A DNA stretch of 64,000 bases from an uncultured Flaviramulus sp. (lineage in GTDB: Bacteria > Bacteroidota > Bacteroidia > Flavobacteriales > Flavobacteriaceae). Below, one piece after another: positions 42,366 to 61,581 of this stretch. Each line of letters starts with the position of its first letter. Position 1 is the first letter of the stretch. A model generated the notes under the pieces. The model was not told where the DNA came from. It worked only from the letters and a program-made list of their open reading frames with translations, and made no database searches. The stretch lies in contig CANKVS010000003.1 of NCBI GenBank assembly GCA_947487155.1, positions 1-64,000 of the forward strand, in the 5' to 3' direction. Made by a program: the position numbers and the translations under genes.

Positions 42366-42382
42366 TTGGCATAGTATTGACT
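42366..42382 (+). promoter_or_regulatory. Candidate sigma-54 promoter of the efflux operon
   Basis: TTGGCATAGTATTGACT has the -24 block TTGGCA intact; against YTGGCACGRNNNTTGCW it matches 10 of 14 fixed positions, with the -12 GC degraded to AC. It lies 28 bases before the HlyD ATG and next to a sigma-54 regulator gene. Confidence 0.45.
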
Positions 42383-42410
42383 ATATAATGACTATAAATA
42401 TTGTTATTGT

Positions 42411-43658
42411 ATGGACATCCCTTTAGAAAAGAAACGATTTAATAAGAAAACCATTAGCATTATTGTTGGAATAATTCTTCTAATTGCATTAATCACTTTT
42501 GTGGTTATTTCAACTGGAGGAAACTCTAAGTTAAATGTAGATAGAGAACGAATTTCTATTAATGAGATTAAAGAAGGGGTGTTTCAGGAAAATATTCCTG
42601 TTACAGGTAATGTATTACCAATTACTACAATTTATTTAGATGCTCTTGAAGGCGGACGAGTAGATGAACTTTTTGTTGAAGATGGTGCTATTATGAAACA
42701 AGGCGACCCTATACTTCGCTTATCGAATACCGATTTAGAATTGAGTTTAGTAAACCAAGAAACATCAGTATATAATTTATTAACACAAATGCAGATTTCT
42801 CAAAATGCAGCGCGTCAAAATACCATTAACAAGTTGACTAGAATGACCGATGTTGAGAATGCGCTTATTGAAGCCAGTAGAGTTTATCAACTTAATAAAA
42901 AACTATTTGATCAAAAGGCTATAGGCCGTCAAGAATTTCAAGAATCAGAAAATAATTATAACTACCAAAAGCAACAAATGGAACTTGCTCAAGAAATTTT
43001 AAAACAAGATTCAATATCTACTAAGCAGGAAACTAATCAAGCTCAAAATTCATTTTCTAGAACCCAAAGTGCTTTAAAATTAATGAGGAAGAAGGTTGGA
43101 GATTTAGTAGTAAAAGCTCCAGTTGATGGTCAGCTAACATCTTTAGACGCCGAAATTGGACAGTCTAAAAACAAAGGCGAGCGTTTAGGACAATTAGATG
43201 TGCTGAGTGGGTTTAAAGTACGCGCCGATATTGATGAACATTACATATCTAGAATTTATACAGGGCAACGTGGTATTTTCTTATTTAACAATAAAGAATA
43301 CAGCCTCGTTATTAAAAAAGTATTCACTCAAGTTACAGGAGGTCGTTTTCAAGTAGATATGCTTTTTGAAGAAAAAGTAGAAGGTGTTCGCCGTGGACAA
43401 TCATTACAAATCCGATTGGCTTTAAGCGAGGAAAAGCAAGCGATTTTTGTTCCAAAAGGAGGCTTTTTTCAACAAACAGGCGGTAATTGGATTTTTAAAT
43501 TGAATGAAGCTGGTACAATAGCTTACAAAGTAGATATCCGCCTCGGAACAAAAAACACAGAATATTACGAGGTGTTAGAAGGCTTAGAACCTGGTGATAA
43601 AGTAATAACATCTAGCTATGATAATTACGGAGACAAACAAGAATTGATATTAAAATAA
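42411..43658 (+). CDS. HlyD-family periplasmic adaptor of an ABC efflux system
   Basis: Membrane-fusion protein of 415 residues bridging an inner-membrane transporter and a TolC-like channel. One N-terminal membrane helix (about 15-32; TISIIVGIILLIALITFVVI), then split lipoyl/biotinyl half-motifs flanking a coiled-coil hairpin (about 115-225; NNYNYQKQQMELAQEIL), a VVKAPVDGQLTSLDAEIGQ return motif, and beta-barrel and membrane-proximal domains. First gene of the divergent operon; ATPase, permeases and TolC-like protein follow. By analogy it is the MacA counterpart. Confidence 0.93.
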   Translation: MDIPLEKKRFNKKTISIIVGIILLIALITFVVISTGGNSKLNVDRERISINEIKEGVFQENIPVTGNVLPITTIYLDALEGGRVDELFVEDGAIMKQGDPILRLSNTDLELSLVNQETSVYNLLTQMQISQNAARQNTINKLTRMTDVENALIEASRVYQLNKKLFDQKAIGRQEFQESENNYNYQKQQMELAQEILKQDSISTKQETNQAQNSFSRTQSALKLMRKKVGDLVVKAPVDGQLTSLDAEIGQSKNKGERLGQLDVLSGFKVRADIDEHYISRIYTGQRGIFLFNNKEYSLVIKKVFTQVTGGRFQVDMLFEEKVEGVRRGQSLQIRLALSEEKQAIFVPKGGFFQQTGGNWIFKLNEAGTIAYKVDIRLGTKNTEYYEVLEGLEPGDKVITSSYDNYGDKQELILK

Positions 43659-43778: not shown

Positions 43779-44456
43779 ATGATTAAAATTAAAGATTTAG
43801 AAAAATATTACAAAACTGAAGAGCTACAAACCATAGCTTTAAATAAACTGTCTTTTGAAGTGAAACAAGGCGAGTTTATAGCAGTTATGGGGCCTTCTGG
43901 ATGCGGAAAATCTACGTTGCTTAATATACTAGGTATGTTAGACGATTCAGATGGCGGAAGTTTTATTTTTAATGGAGAAGAGGTTATTAATTACAACGAA
44001 CGTAAAAGGGCTAACATCCGTAAACATAATATTGGGTTTGTATTTCAAAGTTTTAATTTGATAGATCAACTTACAGTATTTGAAAATGTAGAGCTTCCAT
44101 TAATTTATACGGGTGTAAAAAAAGCAGAACGCAAAAAGAAAGTACATGAGGTTTTAGAAAAAATGCAAATTATGCACAGGCGCAAGCATTTTCCGCAACA
44201 ACTTTCTGGTGGTCAACAGCAGCGTGTTGCTGTAGCAAGAGCGGTAGTAAATGACCCTAAACTAATACTTGCCGATGAGCCAACAGGGAACTTAGACAGT
44301 AGTAATGGTAATGAGGTTATGGAATTATTAACCGAATTAAACAACCAAGGAGCAACTATAATAATGGTAACGCATAGTGAGCATGATGCTAAATACAGTC
44401 ATCGTATTATTCGCATGTTAGATGGACAGAAAGTAACTGAGAATAGTTTGATATAA
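43779..44456 (+). CDS. ABC transporter ATP-binding protein (LolD/MacB type)
   Basis: 225 residues. Walker A GPSGCGKST, Q-loop FVFQSFNLIDQ, signature LSGGQQQRVAVARA, Walker B LILADEPTGNLDS, H-loop VTHSEHDA. This is the MacB/LolD clade that powers FtsX-type mechanotransmission permeases rather than import. It stands 12 bases before the first of six permease genes, and a second, similar ATPase follows the array at 59232. Probably serves several of the permeases as a shared dimer. Confidence 0.96.
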   Translation: MIKIKDLEKYYKTEELQTIALNKLSFEVKQGEFIAVMGPSGCGKSTLLNILGMLDDSDGGSFIFNGEEVINYNERKRANIRKHNIGFVFQSFNLIDQLTVFENVELPLIYTGVKKAERKKKVHEVLEKMQIMHRRKHFPQQLSGGQQQRVAVARAVVNDPKLILADEPTGNLDSSNGNEVMELLTELNNQGATIIMVTHSEHDAKYSHRIIRMLDGQKVTENSLI

Positions 44457-44467
44457 ATACTTAAATA

Positions 44468-46903
44468 ATGATCAGAAACTATTTTAAAATCGCTTGGCGA
44501 AATTTATTAGAAAACAAACTTTTTTCAGCTATTAACATAATTAGTTTAGCAATTGGACTTTGTGCATCTTTTGTTATTGGTTTGATAGTTTATTATGATT
44601 TCACCTTTGATACTTTTCATTCTGGTGGTGATAGGATATATCGTATTACTAGCAATTTTAAAAGCCTAGAAAAAGATTTTTATAATTCTGGAGCACCTAT
44701 CCCATTGGGAACATCTTTAAAGAGTACAATTACTAATATTGATGTTACAAGTTCTTTTTTTACAATGTCTCCTGCTAGTATAAAAATTGTCAATACCAAT
44801 CAGAAATATGAATATTTAGAGAAGACAATTTATGCTGATGAAAACTATTTTGATTTATTTGAATACCAATGGCTAGCTGGTACACCAGAAAAAGCTTTGG
44901 CAGCCCCATATGAAGTGATTCTTACCAAGAATCGAGCTAAAAAATATTTTCCAACGCTCAATCCTGAACAAATAGTTGGTCAATCTTTGATTTATAACGA
45001 TACGATACCTGCAACAGTTATGGGTGTTGTGGCTAACTACGCTAAACGAAGTGATCTGATTTTTGAAGAATTTATTTCAGTAAAGACTTTTGAATCATCA
45101 GGTATGGCTAGTATAGGTTTAGATAATGGTTGGAATAATACCAATTCTGCTTCACAATTATTCGTTAAGTTACATGAAAATGCAAGTGTTACAGATACTC
45201 AGGAACAACTGGATAAATTAGCTAAAGAACATGAAGATAAGCGACTAGCAGAGTTTGGTATGAAGCGAAAATTTTATTTACAACCTTTGAATGATCTTCA
45301 TTTTAATTCAGACTATGGTATTTTTAATGATAGTATTAGTCCAGCAAGTAAACCTGTTCTCTTGAGCTTAGGCTGTGTTGCCTTATTTCTACTTCTTTTA
45401 GGTAGTATTAATTTTATAAACCTTAATACTGCTCAGGCAACCAAACGAGCTAAGGAGATTGGTATACGAAAAACGTTTGGTGTCTCAAAAAATCAGCTTG
45501 TTTTCCAATTTTTGATTGAGAGCTTACTATTGACAGTAGTTGCTGCTATACTTTCTCTTCTTTTTTCTAGCTGGCTATTTCATATATTTTCAGATATCAT
45601 TCCAAACGATGTTGGTTTTGAACTTTTTGCCAATCTAGAAATCCTTATTTATATTCTCCTTCTTATTTTAATAGTTGCATTTTTGAGTGGGTTTTACCCT
45701 GCGCTAGTACTTACAAGGTTTAGACCAGTATTGGTTTTGAAAAATCAGTTATTACCTAGTAATAATAAATCATCGTTTAGAAAATATCTAACAACTTTTC
45801 AATTTGTAATTGCACAAATTTTTGTCATCGCCACAATTCTTGTAAGTAAACAAGTCAATTTTTTAATAAACAAAGATATGGGTTTTAAAACGGAAGCTGT
45901 TGCATACGTGAGAACCTGGAGTAATACTTCTATAGATAAACGTTTACGGTTTATGAATGAAATAGAGGCGTTGCCTGAAATAAGAGATATAAGTCTTGGA
46001 GGAAACCCTCCAGCATCAAATAGTACTATCTCAGATGTAGTAACTTGTTTTAACGGTCAAAAAGAAATACACACCGAATTACAACTTCTCTATGGCGATC
46101 AAAATTATAGAGATGTATATGATATACAACTTTTGGCAGGTCGTGAGCGACTAAACGATAGCATCAAGGAATATATTATAAATGAAAGCTGTTCTAAAGT
46201 ATTGGGTTTTGAAAATCCTGAAGATGCTATTGGCCAAGTTTTGTTGTTAAATCAAGAGCAAGCCCCTATTGTAGGTGTGATGTCAGATTTTAACCAACGT
46301 TCTTTAAAATCAAAAATAGAACCGATGGCTCTAGTTGGTAGTTGGCACCGGCAAACTTTCCATACCATTCATTTCTCATTCCAAGATCAAAACATGAAGA
46401 GTTGGTCAGACGCCATATCCAAAGTAGAAAATATTTGGAAAGGCATTTATCCTAGTACAACTTTTAAGTTGAATTTTATGGATGATACTGTTCAACAATT
46501 TTATCAAGAGGAACGAAAAACATCTCTTTTACTGAATTGGGCAATGGGTCTCTCGGTTTTAATAAGTTGTTTAGGGTTATTGGGTTTGGTAATTCATACT
46601 ACAGAGAGACGTACAAAAGAAATTGGAATTAGAAAAGTTTTGGGAGCCTCTATAATGCGGTTAAATCTGTTGATCTGTACTGAATTTATATCATTACTGG
46701 GGATAGCCTTTGTGATTGCGGCACCAATAGCTTGGTTAGGTTTGAATAAATGGTTAGAAGATTTTTCGTATAGAACAGATTTAAGTTGGTGGGTTTTTAT
46801 GCTTAGTGGTATAGTTATGCTCATAATTGCTTTACTAATAATGAGTGTGCGAACATTTTCAATAGTTAATGCAAACCCAATAAACAGTTTAAAAACAGAG
46901 TAA
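44468..46903 (+). CDS. FtsX/MacB-type ABC permease, array member 1
   Basis: 811 residues, a fused tandem of two MacB-like units. N-terminal conserved MIRNYFKIAWRNLLENK and first membrane helix (about 20-42), periplasmic MacB_PCD domain, FtsX membrane block (about 295-430; NLNTAQATKRAKEIGIRKTFG), a second periplasmic domain, and a second FtsX block at the C-terminus (about 680-800; TTERRTKEIGIRKVLGAS). It ends with the tail NPINSLKTE. Eight membrane helices are expected. The fused form means one polypeptide with an ATPase dimer could make a full transporter. Only three bases separate it from member 2. Confidence 0.95.
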   Translation: MIRNYFKIAWRNLLENKLFSAINIISLAIGLCASFVIGLIVYYDFTFDTFHSGGDRIYRITSNFKSLEKDFYNSGAPIPLGTSLKSTITNIDVTSSFFTMSPASIKIVNTNQKYEYLEKTIYADENYFDLFEYQWLAGTPEKALAAPYEVILTKNRAKKYFPTLNPEQIVGQSLIYNDTIPATVMGVVANYAKRSDLIFEEFISVKTFESSGMASIGLDNGWNNTNSASQLFVKLHENASVTDTQEQLDKLAKEHEDKRLAEFGMKRKFYLQPLNDLHFNSDYGIFNDSISPASKPVLLSLGCVALFLLLLGSINFINLNTAQATKRAKEIGIRKTFGVSKNQLVFQFLIESLLLTVVAAILSLLFSSWLFHIFSDIIPNDVGFELFANLEILIYILLLILIVAFLSGFYPALVLTRFRPVLVLKNQLLPSNNKSSFRKYLTTFQFVIAQIFVIATILVSKQVNFLINKDMGFKTEAVAYVRTWSNTSIDKRLRFMNEIEALPEIRDISLGGNPPASNSTISDVVTCFNGQKEIHTELQLLYGDQNYRDVYDIQLLAGRERLNDSIKEYIINESCSKVLGFENPEDAIGQVLLLNQEQAPIVGVMSDFNQRSLKSKIEPMALVGSWHRQTFHTIHFSFQDQNMKSWSDAISKVENIWKGIYPSTTFKLNFMDDTVQQFYQEERKTSLLLNWAMGLSVLISCLGLLGLVIHTTERRTKEIGIRKVLGASIMRLNLLICTEFISLLGIAFVIAAPIAWLGLNKWLEDFSYRTDLSWWVFMLSGIVMLIIALLIMSVRTFSIVNANPINSLKTE

Positions 46904-46905
46904 CC

Positions 46906-49263
46906 ATGATTCAAAATTATCTAAAATTAGCCTGGCGGAATCTTATAAAAAATAAAGGATTTTCTGCATTGAATGTTATAGGGCTATCCATAGGCTTGGC
47001 AGTGGTCACTTTAATTTTTGTATGGATAAATTTTGAGCTTTCCTATAATCAATTTCATATTAACAAAGACCGAATCTACGAAGTAAACAATCAGTATAAT
47101 ATAAATGGGGAGATTAGTACCTGGAATTCCACCCCAAAAATTATGGGGCCAACCATAAAAAAGGATTACCCTGAGGTGGAGGCCGTATCAAGATATAGTT
47201 ACGAAGAGGATTTTCTTTTTTCGGTAGATGGTAAAAATTTAAAGGCCACGGGCAACATAGTTGATCAGGACTTTTTAAAAATGTTCAGCTTTCCGCTGTT
47301 GGAAGGCAAAAAAACCTCGGTTTTGAATGATGTCAATTCGATTATTATTACCAAAAGTCTTGCTAATAAGCTATTTGGAAAAGAATCTTGTATTGGGGAA
47401 ATGGTAAAAATCAACAATGCAGATAGCTTTTTAATCACTGGGATATTAAAGGACATTCCTAAAAATTCTGAATTCAATTTTGACTTTTTGGTTTCCTGGG
47501 CTTACCTCGATAAAATGGGATGGAATGAGAAGAATTGGAGTAACAACAATGTAATGACCTATGTAATGCTCAACCCTCAATCTGACTATAAAGCTTTCTC
47601 GGCCAAAATAAAAACGCTGCGAAAGAATTACGACAAGAAATTCCCCAATATGGTTACGTATTTACATCCTTTCAAGCGAACCTATCTCTATTCAAAATTT
47701 GAAAATGGTGTGGAAGTTGGTGGGAAGATTGATATCATTAGATTATTAGGTGCCATTGCTTCTATTATCTTGGTTATTGCCTGTATCAACTTTATGAATT
47801 TAAGTACCGCAAGGAGTGAAAAACGAGCCAAGGAAGTAGGTCTGCGGAAAGTGGTTGGAGCTAACAAAAGTACCTTGATAGGTCAGTTTATGGGAGAGTC
47901 CTTATTGATTTCGTTTATTTCCGCCTTAATCGCCTTTTTTCTTGTTTTGTTGGTATTGCCCATGTTTAGCACGCTTGTTGGAAAAGAGCTCAATTTAAAT
48001 CTAACAGACCCTTGGTTATGGGTTGCAGCCTTAACCATTATTACCTTTACAGGAATTTTGGCAGGTAGCTATCCAGCATTATACTTGTCTTCTTTCAAGC
48101 CCTCTGTTGTATTAAAGGGAACTTATAAAAAAATGAATACCTTGATTACTACAAGAAAACTGTTAGTGGTTGTACAATTTTCTGTGGCCATCATCCTAAT
48201 TACTGCAACCATTATTGTGAAACAGCAATTGAAAAAGGTTCAGGACAGACAATTAGGTTATGCAAAGAACAATCTGGTCTATTCTATAATGGAAGGCGAT
48301 ACAGAGAAAAACTATAACTTCATTAAAGAAGAGCTTTTGGCTTCCAGGACGGCCGTTTCAGTAACCAAGACAGGCTCACCAATTACAGAAAGTTGGAGTT
48401 CCGGGGTGATGGAATGGAAAGGGAAAAAGGAGGGGGACAAAACAATAATTTTGAGACTTCCTGCAAATGATGCCATTGTAAAAACCCTTGGATTGCAATT
48501 GGTGGCTGGACGTGATTTTGATCTGCGAAAATATTCTACAGATTCAACCGCCCTTATTCTTAATGAATCTGCAGTTAAGCATATGGGTTTTGAAGACCCA
48601 ATTGGACAAATTGTGAAAGACAATGGTATTGATTGGCATGTAGTGGGCGTCGTTAAGGATTTTGTGTTTAACTCGCCATTTCAAAAAATAGAACCCTTAA
48701 TGATTGAAGGAGCCAAAACTTGGTTCAATGTAATTCATATAAAGTTCAACAATAAGAACTCTACTTTGGAAAACTTGACTAACGCTGAAAAAATATTTAA
48801 AAAATATAATCCAGAATACCCTTTTAACTATGAATTTGTGGATCAACAATACGCTACAAAATTCAACACCCAACAACGAACTGAAAAATTAGCAAGCTTG
48901 TTTACATTGTTTACCATTTTTATTTCCTGTTTGGGGCTTTTTGGACTGGCCAGTTATACGGCAGAAAACCGCATAAAGGAAATTGGCATTAGAAAAGTGT
49001 TGGGGTCTACGGTTGGCAATATTACTGCGCTTTTGTCAATAGATTTTTTAAAGTTGGTTTTGGTTGCCTTTTGCATTGCAATACCTATATCGTGGTATAT
49101 AATGGAAAAATGGTTGCAAGATTTCGAGTATAGGGTAAATATCTCTTGGTCGGTCTTTGTGTTTTCAGGTCTTTTGGGACTATTTATAACCTTTATTACA
49201 GTAAGTTACCAAGCCATTAAAGCGGCTAATTCAAACCCAATTAAAAGTTTAAAAACAGAATAA
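46906..49263 (+). CDS. FtsX/MacB-type ABC permease, array member 2
   Basis: 785 residues with the same plan as its neighbours: MIQNYLKLAWRNLIKNKG at the start, MacB_PCD, FtsX block with NLSTARSEKRAKEVGLRKVVG, second MacB_PCD, C-terminal FtsX block (TAENRIKEIGIRKVLGST), tail NPIKSLKTE. Its DNA looks different from the other members: in two sampled 60-base lines (48301-48420) I count 52 of 120 G or C, against 17 of 60 and 18 of 60 in lines from members 3 and 6. It contains more GCC, GGC and CTG-type codons. This hints at separate origin or recent acquisition. Confidence 0.95.
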   Translation: MIQNYLKLAWRNLIKNKGFSALNVIGLSIGLAVVTLIFVWINFELSYNQFHINKDRIYEVNNQYNINGEISTWNSTPKIMGPTIKKDYPEVEAVSRYSYEEDFLFSVDGKNLKATGNIVDQDFLKMFSFPLLEGKKTSVLNDVNSIIITKSLANKLFGKESCIGEMVKINNADSFLITGILKDIPKNSEFNFDFLVSWAYLDKMGWNEKNWSNNNVMTYVMLNPQSDYKAFSAKIKTLRKNYDKKFPNMVTYLHPFKRTYLYSKFENGVEVGGKIDIIRLLGAIASIILVIACINFMNLSTARSEKRAKEVGLRKVVGANKSTLIGQFMGESLLISFISALIAFFLVLLVLPMFSTLVGKELNLNLTDPWLWVAALTIITFTGILAGSYPALYLSSFKPSVVLKGTYKKMNTLITTRKLLVVVQFSVAIILITATIIVKQQLKKVQDRQLGYAKNNLVYSIMEGDTEKNYNFIKEELLASRTAVSVTKTGSPITESWSSGVMEWKGKKEGDKTIILRLPANDAIVKTLGLQLVAGRDFDLRKYSTDSTALILNESAVKHMGFEDPIGQIVKDNGIDWHVVGVVKDFVFNSPFQKIEPLMIEGAKTWFNVIHIKFNNKNSTLENLTNAEKIFKKYNPEYPFNYEFVDQQYATKFNTQQRTEKLASLFTLFTIFISCLGLFGLASYTAENRIKEIGIRKVLGSTVGNITALLSIDFLKLVLVAFCIAIPISWYIMEKWLQDFEYRVNISWSVFVFSGLLGLFITFITVSYQAIKAANSNPIKSLKTE

Positions 49264-49301: not shown

Positions 49302-51784
49302 ATGATCAGAAACTATTTCAAACTAGCGTGGAGAAACCTAATTAAAAACAAAGGGTACTCTCTAATTAACATAGGCGGTTTAGCAATTGGTATAACAGCA
49401 TATTTGCTCATTATTCAATATGTGAATTTTGAATCGAGTTATGATCAACATCAACCACATATAGATGATTTATATCGCGTTACGCTTTCTACCAATTTAG
49501 GAGCAAAAGGTTTTGTGGATGCTGCGGCAACGCATCCAGCAGTTGGGTCATCCATGAAGAGAGATTTTCCAGAGGTAGATAATTATGCAAGACTTGTAAA
49601 CAAGGAGATAATGATGGGCTCTTTTGTATTGTCTTATATTAATGAACAAGGTGATTTGGTGAAATCTAATGTAGGAAACGATTTGATTTACATTGCCGAT
49701 AGTACAGCATTAGATCTTTTTAAAATTAATCTTGTTAAAGGAAACCCTAAAACAGCTCTAAAAGAACAGCGGTCAATGATTTTATCAACTAAAGTGGCAG
49801 AACGCTTTTTTGGAGATCAAGATCCTATTAATAAAACCCTAATGGCGAATGGGAATATTCAAGTAAAGGTTACTGGTGTTTTTGATGAGCTTCCAGAAAA
49901 CACCCATTTAAAATTTGATATGCTGATTTCGTTTTCAACACTAGGAACATGGACAGAAACCACTTGGAATTGGCCAGAGTTTTATAATTACGTAAGGCTA
50001 AAACCAGGAACAGACCCGGCAATTGTTGAGGCTAAATTCCCTGCTTTTATAGATAAATACTTAAGCGAAAGTATGAAAGCCCATAGTTTTGAAGCAAAAA
50101 TGGGGTTACAGCCTGTTAAAGATATTCACTTAAAGTCCCACTTAGCTAATGAAATTTCAGTAAACAGTAATGAGAAAACATTAAACTTTCTGTGGCTTAT
50201 TGCGGTGTTTGTAATTTTAATTGCACTCATGAACTTTATTAATCTTTCAACCGCAAAATCTACAGAACGTGCTATGGAAGTAGGTTTAAAAAAAGTGGTT
50301 GGTATTAAACGAAGTGCTTTAATAGTGCAGTTTTTATTTGAGTCTGTAATTATTAATCTAATTGCTGCAATAATTGCAATAACAATAATAAGTTTACTAA
50401 TCAGTCCTTTTAACGAATTTGTAGGGCTTCATATTTTGTCTTTAGATATGTGGGGACAACTACCAATATGGTTGCACATAATTGGTCTTGTCTTTTTAGG
50501 CGGACTCTTAGCGGGTATATATCCAGCTTTTGTATTGTCTGGTTTTAAACCTATACAGGTATTAAAAGGTAAATTTCATCAATCTGAGAAAGGAACCTTT
50601 ATACGTAAGGCTTTAGTGGTTGCTCAATTTACTATATCCATAACATTAATTGCAGGTACTTTTATTATGTATAGCCAGTTTTCGTACATGCAAAATCAAG
50701 ATTTAGGGTTTGATTCTAAACACAATCTTATTTTAAATGCACCTATGGTTGTAGATTCTACAATTAATGATAAAATGGAAGTTTTTAAGGCTGAACTTTT
50801 AAGAAATCCAAATGTAAATGTTATTACAGCTACTGCAGATGTACCTGGTAAAAAAAATCCGTGGTATAATACAACTAGGCAAGTGCATGAAGAAAAAGAA
50901 GTTAGTGTTATTTGTAATCAATTTAATGTAGATCAAGACTTTATGGATACATATAAAATAAAGTTATTAGCTGGAAGAAACTTTAGATTAGAAGATCATT
51001 CATATTACGGTTTTAGAAATCCCAACCCCCCAAGCACAAATAAGCCATATAGAGTTATGCTTAATAGAGCAGCTGTGAAGTTGTTAGGGTTTTTATCTGT
51101 TGAAGATGCTGTAAATAAAAAAGTCATATTTCAGTTAGGACCTCAAGATAGAACTGCTGAAGTTATTGGGGTTATGGAAAATTACCATCAACAATCGCTT
51201 CAAAATAATTATGACCCTACATTGTTTTTATATCCAACGTACTATAATGCATCCTATTTAACGGTAAATATAAATACCTCAAATATTGAAAGTACAATTA
51301 AACATATTGGTGAGAAGTATGAGGCGTTTTTCCCAATGGATCCTTATGAATATTTCTTTTTAGATGAACATTTTAATCGTCAATATAAAGCAGACCGTAA
51401 GTTTGGTCAACTCTTTTTCTTATTTGCAGGATTAGCCATTTTTATTGCTGCTTTAGGCTTATTTGGCTTGGGCTCTTATATGGCTATGCGAAGAACTAAA
51501 GAGCTTTGTGTACGTAAAGTATTGGGCGCAAATGTTTTACATGTGTTGCTTTTAATCCCTAAAAGCTTAGTGGTTTTAGTATTTATTTCTGGAATAATAG
51601 CTGTTCCCATAACTTATTTATGGCTTCAGAATGGCTTTCTAATTATGCGTTTAGAGTTGATATAAACCCATGGATGTTTGTTATTCCTTTAATAGTTGTG
51701 GTTATAGTTGCTGCACTATCTGTGTTGCCAGAATCTATAAAAGTAGCCTTAGTAAAACCTGTTAATTATTTAAGGAATGAGTAG
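49302..51784 (+). pseudogene. FtsX/MacB-type ABC permease, array member 3, frameshifted near the 3' end
   Basis: The open frame ends at 51665 (787 residues, tail NGFLIMRLELI), but a missing base near 51632 explains it. Where relatives have a W-L-x-N-x-A-F-R motif, the sequence reads CAGAATGGCTTTC instead of an expected CAGAATTGGCTTTC. Reading on in the other frame gives WLSNYAFRVDINPWMFVIP and then VALVKPVNYLRNE with a stop at 51784, restoring the last membrane helix. All upstream domains are intact (MIRNYFKLAWRNLIKNKG; NLSTAKSTERAMEVGLKKVVG). It is either a true inactivating frameshift or a sequencing error. The last helix would be lost in the truncated product. Confidence 0.85.
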
Positions 51785-51810
51785 TTGAAAACTTATGTAA
51801 AAGGATAAGT

Positions 51811-51966
51811 ATGGAAACTAAAATTCTAAAATATATAAAAGGAAAAATGGATGTTTCCGAAAAAAGGAAAATGATAGAATGGATTACTAAAAATGAAGAC
51901 AACCATAAAAAGTTTAACATTTTAAAAGCTAAATATGTTGCCTCTAAATTAAAAGATTATGCTTAG
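51811..51966 (+). CDS. FecR N-terminal-like micro-ORF inside the permease array
   Basis: 51 residues, starting METKILKYIKGKMDVSEKRK and continuing with IEWITKNEDNHKKFNILKAKY. It resembles the cytoplasmic anti-sigma segment of FecR proteins (a helix, then an E-W/L-x(3)-N-x-E-N/D region), but has no membrane helix or periplasmic part. It begins 26 bases after the restored end of permease 3, and its stop overlaps the start of permease 4 by eight bases, so it should be translated with the array. It may be the stub of a lost FecR gene or a functional mini anti-sigma protein. Confidence 0.6.
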   Translation: METKILKYIKGKMDVSEKRKMIEWITKNEDNHKKFNILKAKYVASKLKDYA

Positions 51967-54388
51967 AAACTATTTCAAAATCGCGTGGCGAAATTTTAAA
52001 AAGGATAAAAGCTTTATGTTTATTAACCTATTGGGGTTAGCAACAGGATTTGCTATTACGTTGCTTATTATTCAATACGTAAGATTTGAGTTTAGCTACG
52101 AAAACACACATGAAAAAGCTGATAGAATAGTCCGTTTGACTATGGATTATATGGATGGTGACACCGTAACCGCTCAAGACTGTGAAACAAATCCGCCTAC
52201 GGGAGCAATGGCACTTGCGGAAATGCCAGAAGTTGAAAATTTTACTAGAGCCTACCCTATTGGAGAGCCTAATGTAAATATTGATGTTGGAAATGAACAT
52301 TTCATATTAGAAAAGGTGTTTGCTGTAGATAATGCATTTTTTGATATGTTCTTTTATCCATTACTATATGGAACAAAGAAAGATATTTTTAAACAACCCA
52401 ATCAAGCCGTTATAACAGAAACTACGGCGCTTAAGTATTTCAACAAAAAAAATGTTATAGGCGAAGTACTAGAAATGCCACTTTCTAAAGGTGTTGTATT
52501 GTTAAACATTGTTGGTGTTGTAGCCGATAGTCCACCCAATACACATTTAAAGTTTAATATGCTTTTCTCCTATCCAACCATGTTATCTGATAAAGCTATG
52601 TTAGGTGAATATGGAGAAACAGAAGATAATTGGAATGGAAACAACACCTTAACATATTTACTATTAACTCCAAACACTAATTATGAGCGTTTTACAACAT
52701 CGCTAATAGGGTTTAATGAACATTTAGAACGCTTAGAAATTAAAAAGAAGGAAAGACTCATTGGACAGAAAATTGCAGATATTCACTTATATTCAAACAA
52801 GCCTTTTGAAACTGAACCCAATGGAAAAGCTTCTTCAGTTTTCTTCTTATTAGGAGTAGCCTTTTTAGTTATTATTAGTGCTTTTGTAAATTATACTAAT
52901 CTAGCAACATCTAAAGCTTTAGATAGAGCTAAAGAAGTTGGAATTAGAAAAGTGGTCGGGTCAACCAAAAGCCAATTAAGAGTTCAGTTTTTAATAGAAT
53001 CTCTTCTTATTAATTTTTGCGCAGGAATCTGTGCTATAATATTAATTTTAATTTCAAAATCCAAGTTTATTGAGGTGTCTGGCTTACCATCAGATTTCAG
53101 CATTTTTGGTGATCTGTTCTTTTGGATTATACTTGGTGCTTTTATTTTATTAGGAGTGCTATTTTCTGGAGTTTATCCTGCATTAGTGCTATCTTCATTT
53201 AAGCCTTCTTCAGTATTAAAAGGAGCCTTTACACATTCAACACAGGGTGTGTTTCTTCGGAAATCTTTAGTGGTTTTTCAATTTGCAATTACCATTATTT
53301 TACTAATTCAAATTTTTACTATTAATAAGCAATTAGAGTATCTCCAAAATATAGATTTAGGCGTAAATACGGATAAGACTATAGTTGTAAGCTCGCCTAC
53401 ACAAAATACCGAACGTGAGAATTACAGCGTTTTTAAGCAAAAATTGTTGGCAAATGCTTCAATAAATTCAGTAGCACTTTCAGATTCTGTACCAGGGCAA
53501 ATGGTAAGTCAAATGAGCACAACTACAGGGATAAATCTTGTTGAGATTATTGAAGATCATAATTATAATTTCTATTTAACTTTAATAGATGCCGATTTTA
53601 TTCCACAAATGGATATGAAATTAGTTGCAGGTAACAATTTTGACGAGACAAGTCACCCTGAAAAAAATGAAGTGATTGTTAATCAAAAGGCTATTCGCTT
53701 ATGGGGAATTCCAGAAGCTGAAAACGCCATAGGTAAAAAATTAAAGTTTTGGGGAAATGAATGGACTATAAAAGGGGTTCTTAAAAATTATCATCAAGAA
53801 TCTGCAAAATCGCCTCACATTCCTGTTATTCATAGATATTATGATAAATTTCAAAGCTTTGCGAGTATTAAATTTCATAATGCAAATCCTAAAGAGCAAG
53901 TTTCATTAATAGAAGAAACCTATAAGTCTGTTTTTCCAAATGCTCCATTCTCTTACTTTTTTATGGATAGCGAATATGATAAACAGTTTAAAGCAGATAA
54001 ACAGTTTAAAGACGTATTTAGCGTACTCACAGGATTTGCCATTTTAATTGCTTGTTTAGGGCTATTTGGTTTAGCATCATTCACTGTTTTAAAACGTAAA
54101 AAAGAGATTGGTATTAGAAAAGTAATAGGAGCTAATGTACTAAATATCTTGGTGTTGCTCTCTAAAAACTTTATACAAACAGTTGTTATGGCCATGCTTA
54201 TAGGTGTCCCCATAACTTATTTGATAGCAACAAAATGGTTAGAAAATTTTGCCTTTCGAATAGAGCTTAACTGGTGGTTGTTTGTACTTCCTGTTGTTTT
54301 AATTATGGGATTGGTTATGTTTTCAATTAGCATTAAAACTATAAATGCAGCAATAATAAATCCAGTAAAATCATTAAAAGACGAATAA
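51959..54388 (+). CDS. FtsX/MacB-type ABC permease, array member 4
   Basis: 809 residues. Starts MLRNYFKIAWRNFKKDKS and overlaps the micro-ORF stop by eight bases. First membrane helix about 20-40, MacB_PCD, FtsX block with NLATSKALDRAKEVGIRKVVGST, second periplasmic domain, C-terminal FtsX block with TVLKRKKEIGIRKVIGAN, tail NPVKSLKDE. Closest in plan to member 3. Its first 40 bases are nearly identical to those of member 5. Confidence 0.95.
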   Translation: MLRNYFKIAWRNFKKDKSFMFINLLGLATGFAITLLIIQYVRFEFSYENTHEKADRIVRLTMDYMDGDTVTAQDCETNPPTGAMALAEMPEVENFTRAYPIGEPNVNIDVGNEHFILEKVFAVDNAFFDMFFYPLLYGTKKDIFKQPNQAVITETTALKYFNKKNVIGEVLEMPLSKGVVLLNIVGVVADSPPNTHLKFNMLFSYPTMLSDKAMLGEYGETEDNWNGNNTLTYLLLTPNTNYERFTTSLIGFNEHLERLEIKKKERLIGQKIADIHLYSNKPFETEPNGKASSVFFLLGVAFLVIISAFVNYTNLATSKALDRAKEVGIRKVVGSTKSQLRVQFLIESLLINFCAGICAIILILISKSKFIEVSGLPSDFSIFGDLFFWIILGAFILLGVLFSGVYPALVLSSFKPSSVLKGAFTHSTQGVFLRKSLVVFQFAITIILLIQIFTINKQLEYLQNIDLGVNTDKTIVVSSPTQNTERENYSVFKQKLLANASINSVALSDSVPGQMVSQMSTTTGINLVEIIEDHNYNFYLTLIDADFIPQMDMKLVAGNNFDETSHPEKNEVIVNQKAIRLWGIPEAENAIGKKLKFWGNEWTIKGVLKNYHQESAKSPHIPVIHRYYDKFQSFASIKFHNANPKEQVSLIEETYKSVFPNAPFSYFFMDSEYDKQFKADKQFKDVFSVLTGFAILIACLGLFGLASFTVLKRKKEIGIRKVIGANVLNILVLLSKNFIQTVVMAMLIGVPITYLIATKWLENFAFRIELNWWLFVLPVVLIMGLVMFSISIKTINAAIINPVKSLKDE

Positions 54389-54399
54389 AATAACAAGTT

Positions 54400-56808
54400 A
54401 TGCTTAGAAACTATTTCAAAATCGCATGGCGGAATCTTATTAAGAATAAGAGCTATACGCTTATAAATATTGGAGGATTAGCAGTTGGTATGGCTGTGGC
54501 AATTGTTATAGGTCTTTGGATTTATGGAGAGTTATCATACAATAAAAATCATGAAAATTACAATCGTATTGCTCAGGTTATGCAAAATCAAACGGTTAAT
54601 GGTATAACAGAAACATGGGATGCGCTACCTTTTATTATGTCAGAAGGGTTAAGAAACGAATATGGTAATGATTTTAAATATGCGGTACAAGGGACATGGG
54701 AATCTGAGTATACTTTAGGTTTTGGTAATAAGATGTTTATTAAAACAGGAAGTTACTTTGAACCTGAAATTACTGAAATACTTAGCCTTAATATGATTAA
54801 CGGTGTTAGAAATGGTTTAAAGGAAATGCATTCCATTTTATTATCGCAATCGTTGTCTGAGGTGCTTTTTGGAAAAATGGATCCTGTTGGGGAAATTTTA
54901 AAATTGGAAAATAAAGTGGATATTAAAGTGACGGGAGTTTATGAGGATTTTCCTGAGAATTCTTCATTTAAGAAACTTGATTTTATTTTACCATGGGATT
55001 TGTACGTGAGTCAAGACTGGTGGATTAAAGAAGTACTTGAGAGTGTAAATCCATGGGATGCTGGAGGTAGTACACGAACTTATGTCCAAATGGCTGAAAA
55101 CACTATTATTGAAGAAGTGTCTCTCAAAATAAGAGATATAATTACTGATAAGAAATCAGAATTAGATAAAACGTATGAACAAGAAGTATTCTTACACCGC
55201 ATGTCTAAATGGCATTTGTATGGCGAATTTAAAAATGGGACTAGCATAGGGGGGGGTATCGGTGATGTTTGGTTATTTGGTGTTATTGGACTTTTAGTAT
55301 TGCTTCTGGCTTGTATTAATTTCATGAACTTAAGTACAGCTCGATCTGAAAAAAGAGCCAAAGAAGTTGGTATACGGAAAGCTATTGGTTCTAATAGGCG
55401 ACAATTAATAAGTCAGTTTTTTATCGAGTCTATTTTAATATCTACGCTAGCATTTTTGTTTTCAATTTTCGTAGTAGCTTTTATTTTGCCCTTTTTTAAT
55501 CGAATTGCCGATTCTCATGTGGTTATATTGTGGGATAATCCTTTGTTTTGGATTTTAGGATTAGCATTTAGTATTCTCACAGGAATTACAGCAGGAATGT
55601 ATCCTGCATTATATCTGTCTTCTTTTAAGCCTGTGAAAGTATTAAAAGGCGTATTTAAAGCAGGGCAAAGTGCATCTACACCTAGACAAATATTGGTGGT
55701 TTCTCAGTTTACGATTTCAATAATGTTAATAATAGGAACTATTATTGTTTACCAACAAATTAACTATGCGCAAAATAGACCTTTAGGTTACGACAAGGAT
55801 GGGCTTATTGCAGTTTCAACAACAGAAGAAACACACAAAAACATAGATGCTATTAGATTGTCTTTAATTAATGAAGAATCCATCATAGAAATGTCTGAAT
55901 CTAATAACCTTATAACTGATGAATGGAATACGGCAGGTGGTTTTGAATGGGACGGAAAAGATTCTAAGTTGGTGGGTGAATTTCATATTGGTTCTGTTAA
56001 TTATGATTATGGAAAAACTATTGGGTGGAAAATAAAAGAGGGACGCGATTTTTCAAGAGAGTTTGGTACTGATTCAATACAACTTATTTTAAATGAATCT
56101 GCTGTTGCTTTTATGAATTTAAAAGATCCTGTTGGTAAAATTTTGCGAAACCCAGGTGAGGCATCATCAGTTATTACTATTGTAGGTGTTGTTGAAGATT
56201 TGTTGATAGCGTCTCCTTATGAACCAGTGAAACCATACATCTTTGCTAACGTAAAAGGAAGAGGTAAGCTAAGTGAGTTTCTCATAAAGTTAAACCCAGA
56301 AAAAAGTGTAAAGGAATCTTTAGGTAAAATAGAAGCTGTATTTAAAACCTATAACCCATCAAGACCTTTTGAAGCGAGTTTTGTTGATGAAGCCTATGCT
56401 AAAAAATTTGGTAATGAAAAACGCATAGGTCAGTTAGTTACTCTATTAGCAATTCTTGCCATTTTTATTTCTTGCTTAGGTTTGTTTGGATTAGCGTCTT
56501 ATATGGCAGAACAACGCATAAAAGAAATTGGTATACGTAAAGTACTAGGGGCTTCTGTTCTCAGATTATGGAACATGTTATCAAAAGATTTTTTAGGATT
56601 AGTAATTATTGCCTGTGCTATTGCAGTACCTGTGGCTTATTATGTAATGGATGGATGGCTTCAAAAATTTGAGTATCGCACTTCAATTTCATGGTGGGTA
56701 TCGGTATTAGCTTGTGGGGGTGCTGTAGTTGTTACGTTAATTACAGTAAGTTACCAAGGTGTTAAAGCAGCAAAAGCAAATCCAATTAAAAGTTTAAAAA
56801 CAGAATAA
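54400..56808 (+). CDS. FtsX/MacB-type ABC permease, array member 5
   Basis: 802 residues. MLRNYFKIAWRNLIKNKS start, MacB_PCD, FtsX block (NLSTARSEKRAKEVGIRKAIGSN), second MacB_PCD, terminal FtsX block (MAEQRIKEIGIRKVLGAS), tail NPIKSLKTE. Most similar in motifs to member 2 (same NLSTARSEKRAKEVG), but with the AT-rich composition of the rest. Spaced 11 bases from member 4 and two bases from member 6. Confidence 0.95.
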   Translation: MLRNYFKIAWRNLIKNKSYTLINIGGLAVGMAVAIVIGLWIYGELSYNKNHENYNRIAQVMQNQTVNGITETWDALPFIMSEGLRNEYGNDFKYAVQGTWESEYTLGFGNKMFIKTGSYFEPEITEILSLNMINGVRNGLKEMHSILLSQSLSEVLFGKMDPVGEILKLENKVDIKVTGVYEDFPENSSFKKLDFILPWDLYVSQDWWIKEVLESVNPWDAGGSTRTYVQMAENTIIEEVSLKIRDIITDKKSELDKTYEQEVFLHRMSKWHLYGEFKNGTSIGGGIGDVWLFGVIGLLVLLLACINFMNLSTARSEKRAKEVGIRKAIGSNRRQLISQFFIESILISTLAFLFSIFVVAFILPFFNRIADSHVVILWDNPLFWILGLAFSILTGITAGMYPALYLSSFKPVKVLKGVFKAGQSASTPRQILVVSQFTISIMLIIGTIIVYQQINYAQNRPLGYDKDGLIAVSTTEETHKNIDAIRLSLINEESIIEMSESNNLITDEWNTAGGFEWDGKDSKLVGEFHIGSVNYDYGKTIGWKIKEGRDFSREFGTDSIQLILNESAVAFMNLKDPVGKILRNPGEASSVITIVGVVEDLLIASPYEPVKPYIFANVKGRGKLSEFLIKLNPEKSVKESLGKIEAVFKTYNPSRPFEASFVDEAYAKKFGNEKRIGQLVTLLAILAIFISCLGLFGLASYMAEQRIKEIGIRKVLGASVLRLWNMLSKDFLGLVIIACAIAVPVAYYVMDGWLQKFEYRTSISWWVSVLACGGAVVVTLITVSYQGVKAAKANPIKSLKTE

Positions 56809-56810
56809 TC

Positions 56811-59216
56811 ATGGTTAAGAATTATTTTAAAATCGCATGGCGGAATCTTTTAAAAAATAAAGGATTATTCTCCATTAATATTTTTGGGCTTGCACTTGGT
56901 ATTGCTTCATGCTTAATCATAATATTATTTGTAACTGACGAAATGAGTTACGACAGGTATAATGAAAAAGCAGACCAAATCGTTAGAGTTGTTTTAAAAG
57001 GAAACTTTAATGGTGAAGTCGTTAATGAAGCTATAGTTATGACCCCAGTGGCAGAAACAATGATGGAAGAATTTCCAGAAGTTCAAAGTGCCACACGATT
57101 AAAAAAAATAAACAAGCCTAAGGTTACTTTCAATAATACAACCTATAGAAACGGGACTTTTGCTTACGTAGATCCAAATTTCTTTGAGGTTTTTACCTTG
57201 CCAATAATAAAAGGAAACAATACAACTCCTTTAAATGAGCCTAACACCATTGTTCTTATCCAAGAAGAAGCTACAAAATATTTTGGTGTTCAAGATCCTA
57301 TTGGAAAAGTTTTAGATATTGATGATTTACAATTTAAGGTAACAGCTATAATAGAAAAAATTCCAAATAACTCCCATTTTCATTTTGATATGTTGGCGTC
57401 TATGGTAGGTTATAAGGAAGCTAAAAAAACATCATGGACACATGGAGATTATCATACCTATCTAATACTAAAAGAAGGTTATAATTATAAAGATCTTGAA
57501 TCTAAATTACCTCCCTTTATTGAAAAATATATGGGTCCAGAAATGAAACAAGAAATAGGTATGTCTTTTAATGAGTTTACAAAGGACAATCAAATAGGGT
57601 TGTTTTTACAGCCGTTAACAGATATTCATTTAAAATCAGATTTTACTAGTGCAAGTACCTTAGAGCAAGGAGGTGATATTAAAGTTGTATATATTTTTAG
57701 TGCTATTGCCTTATTTATGCTAATAATTGCCTGTATTAATTTTATAAATCTAGCTACCGCATCTGCAACAAAAAGGGCAAAAGAAGTGGGTATTAGAAAA
57801 GTACTAGGTTCTAAAAGAAAGCAATTAATAAGTCAGTTTTTAACGGAATCATTTATGGCATCAATAATGGCTATGGTTTTGGCATTAATATTTGTTGCCA
57901 TTGTACTTCCTTTATTTAATAACTTGTCAGGAAAAGAGCTTGCAATAACGTATTTGTTTTCTCCAAAAATTTTATTGGTGCTCATATCTCTTTTGATTGG
58001 TATAAGCTTTTTGGCAGGGTTTTATCCAGCATTTTATATTGCTTCATTTAAACCAATTTTAGCCTTAAAAAGTAAGTTCTCTCGAAGTGGTAAAAGTGAA
58101 GATATTAGAAGTGGATTGGTGGTTTTTCAATTTGTTGTTTCTGTAGGACTTATACTTGCTGTTATTATAGTTGATCAACAAATGTCATTTATTAAAAATA
58201 AAGATATAGGGTATGACAAAGAGCAGCTTTTGGTATTAAGAGAATCTTATTTTTTAGGAAATAATAAAGCGGCTTTTAAAAATAAGATTTTAAAAGATCC
58301 TAGAGTAACACAGGTAACTACAGCGGCGTTTACTCCAGCAGGAACTTCAGATAAATACGTGTCAGGGATTTTTATCAACCAACAGTTTAATAGAAGGGTT
58401 AATGTGTATAATGTTGATGAGCAATATATTCCAACTATGGGTATGACATTGGTTAAGGGGCGTAATTTTTCTAAAGAGTTTGGCACGGACTCTTTAAACA
58501 TTATTATCAATGAAACCGCTGCAATGAAATTAGGTTTTGGAGATGTGCCTTTAGGAAAGACGCTAACTAGGGATACGAATAATGGAAAACAAAATCTAAG
58601 AGTAATAGGTGTAGTTAAAGATTTTCATTTCCAATCCCTACATAAAAAAATAGAGCCTTTAATCATGCTAAATAACCCTTATGGAGGTTTAATTGTAAAA
58701 GCTAAGATTAAAGATATGTCTGGTCTTATTGAAAGTATATCAACATTATGGAATAGTTTTGATATTGGTGAGCCTTTTAATTATTCCTTACTCGATGAGT
58801 CATACAATACCACTTATCTTAAAGAACAAAAATTAGGAACAATTCTGAGGTCATTTGCTTTACTCACCATTTTTGTAGCCTGCCTAGGATTATTTGGCTT
58901 AGTTACATTTACTACAGAACAACGTTTTAAAGAAATTGGAATTAGAAAAGTTTTAGGCTCATCGATATTGCAAATTGTTACACTGTTATCTAAAGATTTT
59001 ATAAAGTTAGTGCTTGTGTCATTTGTAATAGCTTTTCCTCTTGGGTATTATTTAATGAATAAATGGCTTGAAGACTTTGCATATCGAATAGAAATTCATT
59101 GGTCAACGTTTGTGATGTCAGGATTGATTACAATAATTATTGCATTCATCACAATAAGTTTTAGAAGTATAAACGCAGCAATTACAAACCCCATAAAAAG
59201 TTTAAAAACAGAATAA
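56811..59216 (+). CDS. FtsX/MacB-type ABC permease, array member 6
   Basis: 801 residues. MVKNYFKIAWRNLLKNKG start, MacB_PCD, FtsX block (NLATASATKRAKEVGIRKVLGSK), second MacB_PCD, terminal FtsX block (TTEQRFKEIGIRKVLGSS), tail NPIKSLKTE. Last of the array; the second ATPase follows 15 bases later, so this permease may pair with it. Confidence 0.95.
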   Translation: MVKNYFKIAWRNLLKNKGLFSINIFGLALGIASCLIIILFVTDEMSYDRYNEKADQIVRVVLKGNFNGEVVNEAIVMTPVAETMMEEFPEVQSATRLKKINKPKVTFNNTTYRNGTFAYVDPNFFEVFTLPIIKGNNTTPLNEPNTIVLIQEEATKYFGVQDPIGKVLDIDDLQFKVTAIIEKIPNNSHFHFDMLASMVGYKEAKKTSWTHGDYHTYLILKEGYNYKDLESKLPPFIEKYMGPEMKQEIGMSFNEFTKDNQIGLFLQPLTDIHLKSDFTSASTLEQGGDIKVVYIFSAIALFMLIIACINFINLATASATKRAKEVGIRKVLGSKRKQLISQFLTESFMASIMAMVLALIFVAIVLPLFNNLSGKELAITYLFSPKILLVLISLLIGISFLAGFYPAFYIASFKPILALKSKFSRSGKSEDIRSGLVVFQFVVSVGLILAVIIVDQQMSFIKNKDIGYDKEQLLVLRESYFLGNNKAAFKNKILKDPRVTQVTTAAFTPAGTSDKYVSGIFINQQFNRRVNVYNVDEQYIPTMGMTLVKGRNFSKEFGTDSLNIIINETAAMKLGFGDVPLGKTLTRDTNNGKQNLRVIGVVKDFHFQSLHKKIEPLIMLNNPYGGLIVKAKIKDMSGLIESISTLWNSFDIGEPFNYSLLDESYNTTYLKEQKLGTILRSFALLTIFVACLGLFGLVTFTTEQRFKEIGIRKVLGSSILQIVTLLSKDFIKLVLVSFVIAFPLGYYLMNKWLEDFAYRIEIHWSTFVMSGLITIIIAFITISFRSINAAITNPIKSLKTE

Positions 59217-59231
59217 AAAAATAAAGACAAT

Positions 59232-59903
59232 ATGTTACTAGAAATTAAAGACCTATTTAAATGGGTAAATTCAGGAGGAAATAGAATTTTCCTATTAAAT
59301 GATATTGAATTGACTATAAACGAAGGCGATTTTATCTCCATTATGGGGCCTTCTGGATCAGGGAAAACAACCTTACTAAATGTTATTGGAATGCTTGATG
59401 ATTTTAATGAAGGTGAGTATCATTTTCTCGATCAAGAAGTCCATACCTTAAAAGAAAAATACAGAGCAAAACTGTACAAAGACTATATAGGCTTTGTGTT
59501 TCAGTCTTACCATTTAATTGATGAGTTAACGGTTTATGAAAATATAGAAACACCATTGCTTTATAAAAACTATAAATCTGCAGAGCGCAAGTCTTTAGTG
59601 GCAGATATGTTAGATCGATTTAATATTGTTGGAAAAAAAGATTTATTTCCATCACAATTAAGCGGCGGACAACAGCAAATAGTCGGTATAGCAAGAGCAC
59701 TAATTTCTAGTCCTAAACTTATTCTTGCCGATGAACCAACGGGAAACCTGAATTCAAAACAAGGCGAAGAAATCATGAATTTGTTTAAGCAACTAAATGA
59801 TGAAGGTGTTACTATTATTCAAGTAACTCATTCTGAAAAAAATGCAACATACGGGTCACGAATAATCAACTTACTGGATGGACGAATTATTAACACCGTT
59901 TAG
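59232..59903 (+). CDS. Second ABC ATP-binding protein (LolD/MacB type)
   Basis: 223 residues. Walker A GPSGSGKTT, Q-loop FVFQSYHLIDE, signature LSGGQQQIVGIARA (Ile where the first ATPase has Arg), Walker B LILADEPTGNLNS, H-loop VTHSEKNA. All catalytic elements are present. It is clearly paralogous to the ATPase at 43779 but not a recent copy. It closes the array, suggesting that some permeases use this ATPase and others the first, or that the two make a heterodimer. Confidence 0.95.
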   Translation: MLLEIKDLFKWVNSGGNRIFLLNDIELTINEGDFISIMGPSGSGKTTLLNVIGMLDDFNEGEYHFLDQEVHTLKEKYRAKLYKDYIGFVFQSYHLIDELTVYENIETPLLYKNYKSAERKSLVADMLDRFNIVGKKDLFPSQLSGGQQQIVGIARALISSPKLILADEPTGNLNSKQGEEIMNLFKQLNDEGVTIIQVTHSEKNATYGSRIINLLDGRIINTV

Positions 59904-59911
59904 TTTCCATA

Positions 59912-60124
59912 ATGAAAGTGAAAAAACTCATTGAGACACTTAAAGATTTAGACGAAAACACAGATGTCTATATTCCAAGTAATACTCAAAAAAAGGAGTA
60001 TTACTTGGCGAATTCTGTTATAAAGAGTTCATTAAAAAACCATCTTGGTATCGAAGAAGATTTTATCATTATTGATGTCGAAGAATTTGGATTTACTAAC
60101 TTAAAAAATGACAAACTGGTATGA
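59912..60124 (+). CDS. Small protein with a phage-like KxLIExLKxLDxxT/xxV motif
   Basis: 70 residues. The start KVKKLIETLKDLDENTDVYIP resembles small proteins common in phage and mobile elements (in part KLIETLKDLDENTDVYIP), followed by strands ending in FIIIDVEEFGF. Its stop codon overlaps the TolC-like ATG (ATGA), and it begins eight bases after the second ATPase, so it belongs to the operon. No membrane segment. Function unknown; a regulator or assembly helper is conceivable. Confidence 0.7.
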   Translation: MKVKKLIETLKDLDENTDVYIPSNTQKKEYYLANSVIKSSLKNHLGIEEDFIIIDVEEFGFTNLKNDKLV

Positions 60125-61581
60125 TACGGAATGATTATAGAAACAATGCATTAGTGCAGGTGAAAAAACATGTAATATGGGTTTTTGTTTGGAATATATT
60201 TTTAAGCATTGGGTTTGCTCAAAATACTCAGCGACCTCAGTTTACTTTAGATGATTGTATTGAATTGGCTTTAGAAAATAACAACGATTTAAAAACCTCA
60301 AAACTTCAAACAAAGTCATCAATTATCAATTATAAACAATCTATAAACGAATTGCTGCCTAATCTTAATGCCAATTATAATATTGGAGTTAATGATGGCA
60401 GAAGTATAGATCCCTTTACGAATAGTTATAGCAATCAAGAACTTACGTTTTCAACCTTGGGTGTAAATCTAAACACAACCATTTTTAATGGGTTTAGGAT
60501 ATTAAATAGCATCAAACAGAATAAGTTTAATATGAAGGCTTCTGAAATGGAATTGGAAGAAGCTAAACAAAATTTAATGCTTCAAGTAACCATTGGATAT
60601 ATTCAAATATTAAATAGTAGAGACTTGTTAGATTTGTCAAAATCGAGATTAACAACAACTAAAGTTCAATTAAAAAGATTAAAAACGCATTATGAAGAGG
60701 GTGTTGGAAATCCAGTCGATTACACTGATATGCAAGGACAATACGCCATAGATAAGGTTAATAATGCTGAGGCGGAAAATAGTTTTAAATCGGCAATCTT
60801 AGATTTTATGACCTTGTTAAATTTAGATTCGGATTCTGAAAAGGATTTTGAAGATGTTTCAGGTTTAATAGAATCAGAAAAATATTCATTCACTGCCAAT
60901 GATGTTTACAATGATGCGTTACAGAACCTAGCAACATTTAAATCAAAACAGTTCCGAATTGATGCTGCCGATAGTGGGGTTAAAGTAGCACGGTCTAATT
61001 ATTACCCAGAAATATCTTTTTTCGGACAAATAAACACCAATTATTCAAGTGCTGCTGAGGTGTTTACCGAAACGGGAAGTAGCATTACAGAAACAGGAGA
61101 TTTTGTAACTATTGCTAACCAAAACTATCCCGTACTTCAAAATCAAAGACAATTTTCGAGAAGTAAAATTAGCTACGAAGATCAATTTGATAACAATCTT
61201 AACTCCGTTGTTGGAGTTTCGGTAAGAGTGCCTTTGTTTAATGGTTTTAGAGCTAAAAACGCAGTGCAGTTACAGAAAATTGAGTTGGAAGCCTCAGAGA
61301 TAGAACTAGAAAATACAAAGCGCCTTTTTAAACAATCTATAGAACAAGCTTATAACGATATGGAATTGGCATTTAGCAAATATCATATTTTATTAGATCA
61401 GGTTACAGCTTTTGAAGAATCGTATCGCATAAATGAAGTTAGATTTAATAACGGCGTATCTAACATTATTGAATACATCTCCAGTAAAAATAATATGGAT
61501 GCCGCTCAACTTAATTTAAATAAAGCCAAATACGAATACTTACTACGAGTAAAAATTTTAGATTACTATCGTGGAATTTAA
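60121..61581 (+). CDS. TolC-family outer-membrane efflux protein
   Basis: 486 residues with signal peptide (ending at about residue 34, SIGFAQNTQ) and two outer-membrane-factor repeats: LDDCIELALENNNDLKTSKL and the long alpha-helical pairs with YEEGVGNPVDYTDMQGQ and its partner RFNNGVSNIIEYISSKN in the second half. It forms the trimeric exit duct reached by the HlyD adaptor. Last gene of the operon. It converges almost directly with galT (nine-base gap). Confidence 0.94.
   Translation: MIRNDYRNNALVQVKKHVIWVFVWNIFLSIGFAQNTQRPQFTLDDCIELALENNNDLKTSKLQTKSSIINYKQSINELLPNLNANYNIGVNDGRSIDPFTNSYSNQELTFSTLGVNLNTTIFNGFRILNSIKQNKFNMKASEMELEEAKQNLMLQVTIGYIQILNSRDLLDLSKSRLTTTKVQLKRLKTHYEEGVGNPVDYTDMQGQYAIDKVNNAEAENSFKSAILDFMTLLNLDSDSEKDFEDVSGLIESEKYSFTANDVYNDALQNLATFKSKQFRIDAADSGVKVARSNYYPEISFFGQINTNYSSAAEVFTETGSSITETGDFVTIANQNYPVLQNQRQFSRSKISYEDQFDNNLNSVVGVSVRVPLFNGFRAKNAVQLQKIELEASEIELENTKRLFKQSIEQAYNDMELAFSKYHILLDQVTAFEESYRINEVRFNNGVSNIIEYISSKNNMDAAQLNLNKAKYEYLLRVKILDYYRGI

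Follow-up and report, generated by a model that had tools for sequence, protein, structure and literature searches.

The window analysed here, a stretch of 64,000 nucleotides from an uncultured Flaviramulus sp., contains a micro-ORF of 51 codons (51811-51966, forward strand) that corresponds to the free-standing N-terminal, class-I-type anti-sigma domain of a FecR protein and lies within an operon for a MacB-like exporter. Comparison of three species indicates that it is a real, conserved, lineage-restricted small gene under purifying selection. The explanation that we consider probable is that it encodes a free FecR peptide able to bind region 4 of a sigma factor, captured in the exporter operon and co-expressed with it.

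The micro-ORF in its operon

The micro-ORF runs from ATG to TAG with the translation METKILKYIKGKMDVSEKRKMIEWITKNEDNHKKFNILKAKYVASKLKDYA*. The gene behind it, permease 4 of the array (FtsX/MacB_PCD, 51959-54388, forward strand), begins before the micro-ORF ends, and the two share positions 51959-51966, exactly 8 bases; the coordinates thus confirm the initial annotation, which had described a 51-codon ORF inside a permease array with its stop overlapping the next start. Upstream lies permease 3 (MacB_PCD and FtsX, 49302-51784, forward strand), the constant neighbour of the micro-ORF, followed by a short spacer (51785-51810, forward strand). The spacer has A at positions -3, -6 and -12 relative to the micro-ORF ATG, and A at these positions upstream of start codons is favoured in F. 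johnsoniae (PMC6847099).

The exporter operon reads, in order and entirely on the forward strand, HlyD-family periplasmic adaptor (42411-43658), MacB-type ABC ATPase with the Walker A motif GPSGCGKST and an LSGGQQ signature (43779-44456), six FtsX/MacB-type permeases, a second MacB-type ABC ATPase (59232-59903) and a putative TolC-type outer-membrane efflux protein assigned from sequence (60121-61581). Permeases 1 and 2 (44468-49263) and 5 and 6 (54400-59216) are FtsX/MacB-like by sequence. Divergent from the operon is the gene for an NtrC-type sigma-54 response regulator (40857-42206, reverse strand), which likely controls it; both this gene and the HlyD gene are syntenic in all three species that carry the micro-ORF. 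The intergenic region between them (42207-42410) is strongly conserved in the three species and includes a GGCA...TGACTATATAATGA block. A pattern search for a sigma-54 promoter at the start of the exporter operon gave nothing above chance. The micro-ORF is flanked by FtsX permeases in each of the three species, with no adjoining ECF sigma or TonB-dependent receptor gene, and the earlier proposal of a free FecR-type domain encoded in a transporter operon is borne out by homology and by this synteny.

Two further features of the operon deserve mention. Near the C-terminus of permease 3 (51620-51665), a run of T is one T shorter than that of the Flaviramulus ortholog, a single intact ORF of 827 aa; in the window the frame breaks near 51626, one ORF stopping at 51665 and the rest lying in another frame (51620-51784). 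Either a genuine mutation or an error in the assembly, a draft of 319 contigs, could account for this. An ORF of 70 aa (59912-60124) with no family match separates the second ATPase from the TolC-like gene; the small ORF near that site in the Flaviramulus operon is a different one, of 77 aa.

FecR homology and predicted fold

The match to the cytoplasmic anti-sigma segment of FecR proteins, noted at first from the sequence without database searches, was upheld. Against the N-terminal 50 residues of the nearest sigma-linked FecR proteins of full length, the micro-ORF shows 53-57% identity, and a search of relatives aligned it with the first 46-50 codons of FecR proteins of 326 aa at 59-61% identity (E-values of 4e-15 and 8e-14). 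The matched full-length fecR genes have an ECF sigma gene upstream and a TonB-receptor-like gene downstream. Conserved FecR residues Y8, G11, E17, W24, N31 and F35 are retained, together with the LKA-Y-A motif; an alignment of 31 sequences shows no variation at W24 and A40 and hardly any at K39, and the W that is conserved in Pseudomonadota FecR (Klebsiella, Rhizobium) lines up with W24. As far as the FecR alignment, approximate at such divergence, can place it, the micro-ORF corresponds to region 9-59 of E. coli FecR, which is needed for binding and switching on FecI (PMC9249621). The reading frame ends at residue 51 (65 in the congener described below) and a permease follows, the transmembrane helix and the FecR and FecR_C domains being absent. 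Judged by its sequence, the micro-ORF is clearly a FecR N-terminus, homologous to the cytoplasmic sigma-binding domain. The three micro-ORFs form one clade in the tree (support 96-100), beside one FecR subfamily, so that a single truncation event explains all of them.

No match to the micro-ORF came near the cut-off in Pfam, NCBIfam or PHROGs; T3SS_SCTL and Ets matches were weak, below cut-off and coincidental. Family libraries fail to see it because Pfam leaves the first 120 residues of Bacteroidota FecR unmodelled: on a full-length relative, FecR and FecR_C are found in the C-terminal two thirds, only from residue 121. As the domain is unmodelled in curated libraries, similar mini-genes may go unannotated. 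A profile search of the PDB sequences returned unrelated chains only, and a search of a plasmid collection gave no match.

The AlphaFold model of the product (mean pLDDT 92.5) has three helices (residues 2-9, 15-27 and 29-50) and no fourth. When it was compared with the PDB by Foldseek, the top three of four weak matches were the anti-sigma factors ChrR, ChrR and RsiW (TM 0.72-0.75, E-values 4.8-8); these E-values are non-significant, so the matches support the assignment but do not prove it, and the argument rests on all top three being anti-sigmas. Class-I anti-sigmas grip sigma-4 with helices 1-3 and use helix 4 to block sigma-2 (PMC7406223). The sigma-2-contacting helix is absent from the 51-aa form, and in the 65-aa form the C-terminal tail, considered as a candidate for it, is predicted to be disordered. 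A protein limited to helices 1-3 could keep hold of sigma-4 while lacking the second clamp.

Conservation, selection and alternative readings

Two other species carry the micro-ORF. The copy in an uncultured Flaviramulus (G264) is 92% identical, has 51 aa and the same 8-base overlap, and lies behind the same permease. That in a congener from the window's own genus (G001) is 65% identical and has 65 codons; it too lies behind the same permease, without overlap, and extends a few residues along the FecR pattern (KDLPDD vs KDVPNN). A scan of the contig collection matched only one locus, the Flaviramulus copy, which we counted once, as this locus and G264 are the same contig with an identical ORF. 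A search of 399 sampled genomes of the family at E <= 1e-4 gave no further free-standing copy; a short match in G034 (L011), with two internal stops and no permease nearby, is not an ortholog. In six other genera, nine homologs of permease 3 (52-55% identity) have the next permease directly behind them and no micro-ORF. Conservation beside FtsX permeases, which it had been suggested to check in relatives, holds in two species and fails in these six genera; with three carrier species against 399 genomes sampled it is narrow.

Permease 3, on the upstream side, is the gene that the micro-ORF accompanies. In G001 a different permease follows the micro-ORF, which lies at 541974, whereas the permease 4 ortholog, with 90% identity to the Flaviramulus copy, begins at 551895, some 10 kb further downstream; the 8-base coupling is therefore a derived junction. 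Likeliest is that a deletion in the lineage of the window and Flaviramulus brought the micro-ORF up against permease 4, cutting the reading frame back to 51 codons and giving rise to the overlap. Coupling to the next permease start, the feature stressed originally, accordingly applies to the window and Flaviramulus copies and not to G001, where the ORF goes with the upstream gene. The G001 array (contig C3, 536183-574245; L057-L059) has two ATPases with about 14 FtsX/MacB-type permeases in tandem between them, compared with 6 in the window, a case of rapid expansion and contraction.

The frame is open and free of indels in all three species. The window and Flaviramulus copies differ by 13 base changes, distributed 0/4/9 over the codon positions, with 4 amino-acid changes; so few were obtained in a neutral simulation with P ~2e-4. 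A codon model of the three sequences gave an omega of ~0.05-0.1, an estimate from 51 codons with a wide error and with dS to G001 near saturation, and omega = 1 was worse by ~13 lnL units (2dlnL ~27). For the closest pair dN/dS is 0.07, within the range of flanking exporter and regulator genes of the same species pair (0.01-0.08). Against G001, LWL85 gave ratios of 0.56 and 0.84, higher than those by NG86, and preference was given to the likelihood fit; NG86 gave no dS for two permease 3 pairs, owing to saturation, and those ratios were not used. The spacer is changed at 8 of its 26 positions, the micro-ORF at 13 of 153 (Fisher P=0.004). The dN/dS check suggested at the outset thus gave, by likelihood, an omega far below neutral, with omega = 1 rejected. 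The initial annotation had named a lack of conservation at this position, or neutral rates, as what would speak against the ORF; the position is conserved and the rates are non-neutral, which favours a gene.

These data bear directly on the possibility, initially held equally likely, that the ORF is the stub of a lost gene, a fecR 5' end left by rearrangement and decaying without function. Tandem permease arrays do rearrange often (6 permeases here, ~14 in G001), the window's genome is without the cognate sigma, the upstream permease 3 of the same operon is frame-broken, and the 3' end of the micro-ORF was apparently trimmed at a rearrangement junction. Against this stand the intact frame in three species, an omega significantly below 1, an adjoining spacer that has diverged freely, unlike the micro-ORF, and the resolved changes on the branch to the window's genome, 1 amino-acid-changing and 4 silent, with no sign of relaxed constraint. 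Frame and amino acids kept by selection in three species point to a real small protein and not to a dead gene stub, which we regard as distinctly unlikely. The same constraint on amino acids, rather than merely on an open frame, tells against the ORF existing solely as a translational or leader element whose overlapping stop codon hands ribosomes on to the permease that follows. The overlap in the window and Flaviramulus copies would suit such an element, but G001 has no overlap and a different downstream permease, and the idea, now largely refuted, is most improbable.

A selected gene might still act on something other than a sigma factor. The helical domain could have been co-opted as an accessory subunit that binds a permease or the ABC ATPase, for which there is a precedent in the STAS protein MlaB, a member of an anti-sigma-antagonist-type family that binds the ATPase MlaF (PMC7367683). 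The link to the exporter operon and permease 3 is constant in all three species, and constraint on the micro-ORF persists in the genome without the cognate sigma. However, the residues retained are those common to sigma-linked FecR proteins, and the nine permease 3 homologs in other genera do without the micro-ORF; we think this role unlikely. Given a somewhat better, though still small, chance is a special case of the preferred explanation, in which the peptide antagonizes the full-length membrane FecR by competing for its sigma, so that part of the sigma would no longer depend on the FecR signal. G264 and G001 each have a matching FecR and sigma in the same genome as the micro-ORF, but neither was found in the window's genome, where the antagonist role is thus impossible unless the assembly (99.97% complete) is incomplete.

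Sigma partner, proposed mechanism and known systems

The cognate ECF sigma of the subfamily is 97% identical in Flaviramulus G264 and 76% in G001. The best match to it in the window's genome is 43%, a gene with its own FecR, and no FecR matching the micro-ORF subfamily was found there. Some of the sigma genes of this genome without an obvious FecR neighbour were checked and gave no clear partner: those at C47:30864 and on C46 are of other types, and of the ECF sigma gene on C10 (G000:C10:28800-30996, L111) only the final 112 codons are left, next to an IS21-like IstA/IstB pair. The product in the window's genome would therefore either serve another sigma or play another role, such as that of a transporter accessory. 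In G001 the cognate ECF sigma gene and its fecR lie about 9.7 kb apart (C6:37810-48059, L094); the insert begins at the 3' end of the sigma gene, and the part coding for the sigma C-terminus occurs a second time before fecR, a sequence arrangement that suggests an inserted element with a duplicated target.

Under the explanation that we favour, that of a captured sigma-4-binding peptide, a FecR N-terminus would have been split once from its transmembrane and periplasmic parts and then captured behind an FtsX-type permease in the MacB-like exporter operon. The 51-residue product would be cytoplasmic and would bind region 4 of an ECF sigma through helices 1-3. FecR-type fragments of ~50-90 residues are known to bind and regulate sigma factors unaided (PMC9249621, PMC13118517, PMC4256889): FecR(1-59) switches FecI on without a signal (PMC9249621), FpvR(1-89) alone inhibits FpvI/PvdS (PMC4256889), and the N-terminal domain of LIC12756 alone inhibits the LIC12757 sigma (PMC13118517). 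Having no membrane segment and no periplasmic sensor, the product should act like a FecR proteolysis fragment of ~50 residues, no signal being needed. Its dose would track transcription of the exporter operon, so induction of the exporter would alter ECF sigma activity. Such a link from efflux to sigma is plausible. More tentative, and somewhat short of an even chance in our estimation, is the specific proposal that a constitutively free FecR peptide couples exporter expression to a non-cognate ECF sigma as a signal-independent pro-sigma (or anti-sigma) factor. As to the effect on sigma, we lean slightly to activation or stabilization, with inhibition the next most likely outcome and the lack of any sigma partner the least; the lean to activation is due to the absence of helix 4 and to the analogous FecR(1-59), which activates FecI.

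In Bacteroidota, many receptor-linked uptake loci are switched by FecR/ECF sigma pairs. The FecR-family regulators of this phylum (FecR/FecR_C, encoded next to an ECF sigma gene and a SusC-like receptor gene) resemble the micro-ORF over their first ~50 residues, most closely in the subfamily identified above, and have the conserved aromatic, KA and VAS positions in common with it. Unlike them, the micro-ORF has neither a transmembrane helix, nor a FecR/FecR_C domain, nor an adjoining sigma gene, and it lies in an exporter operon. The N-terminal pro-sigma fragments of FecR(1-59), FoxR and FiuR have the same size, represent the same part of the protein and act without a signal (PMC9249621); these are proteolysis products or laboratory truncations, whereas the micro-ORF, as read from sequence, is a natural stand-alone gene. 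FpvR(1-89) and the LIC12756 N-domain demonstrate that an isolated cytoplasmic FecR-like domain suffices to bind and inhibit sigma (PMC4256889, PMC13118517), although both constructs are laboratory-made and from other phyla, and FpvR(1-89) is longer than 51 residues. With ChrR and RsiW (ASDI), its top fold matches, the micro-ORF product shares a predicted three-helix bundle, but identity is 11-12% with no detectable sequence homology, and helix 4 is missing (PMC7406223).

In the literature that we found, FecR fragments are proteolysis products or laboratory truncations only; the micro-ORF would be a natural gene for such a fragment. A small anti-sigma protein is encoded together with an ABC transporter in sigY-yxlCDEFG of Bacillus subtilis, where the sigma gene is part of the same operon, unlike the exporter operon described here, which has none. 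The micro-ORF product is a ready minimal peptide for asking whether FecR fragments act as pro- or anti-sigma factors, and a selected gene for a sigma-binding fragment in an efflux operon would show a membrane-gated regulator turned into a free cytoplasmic one.
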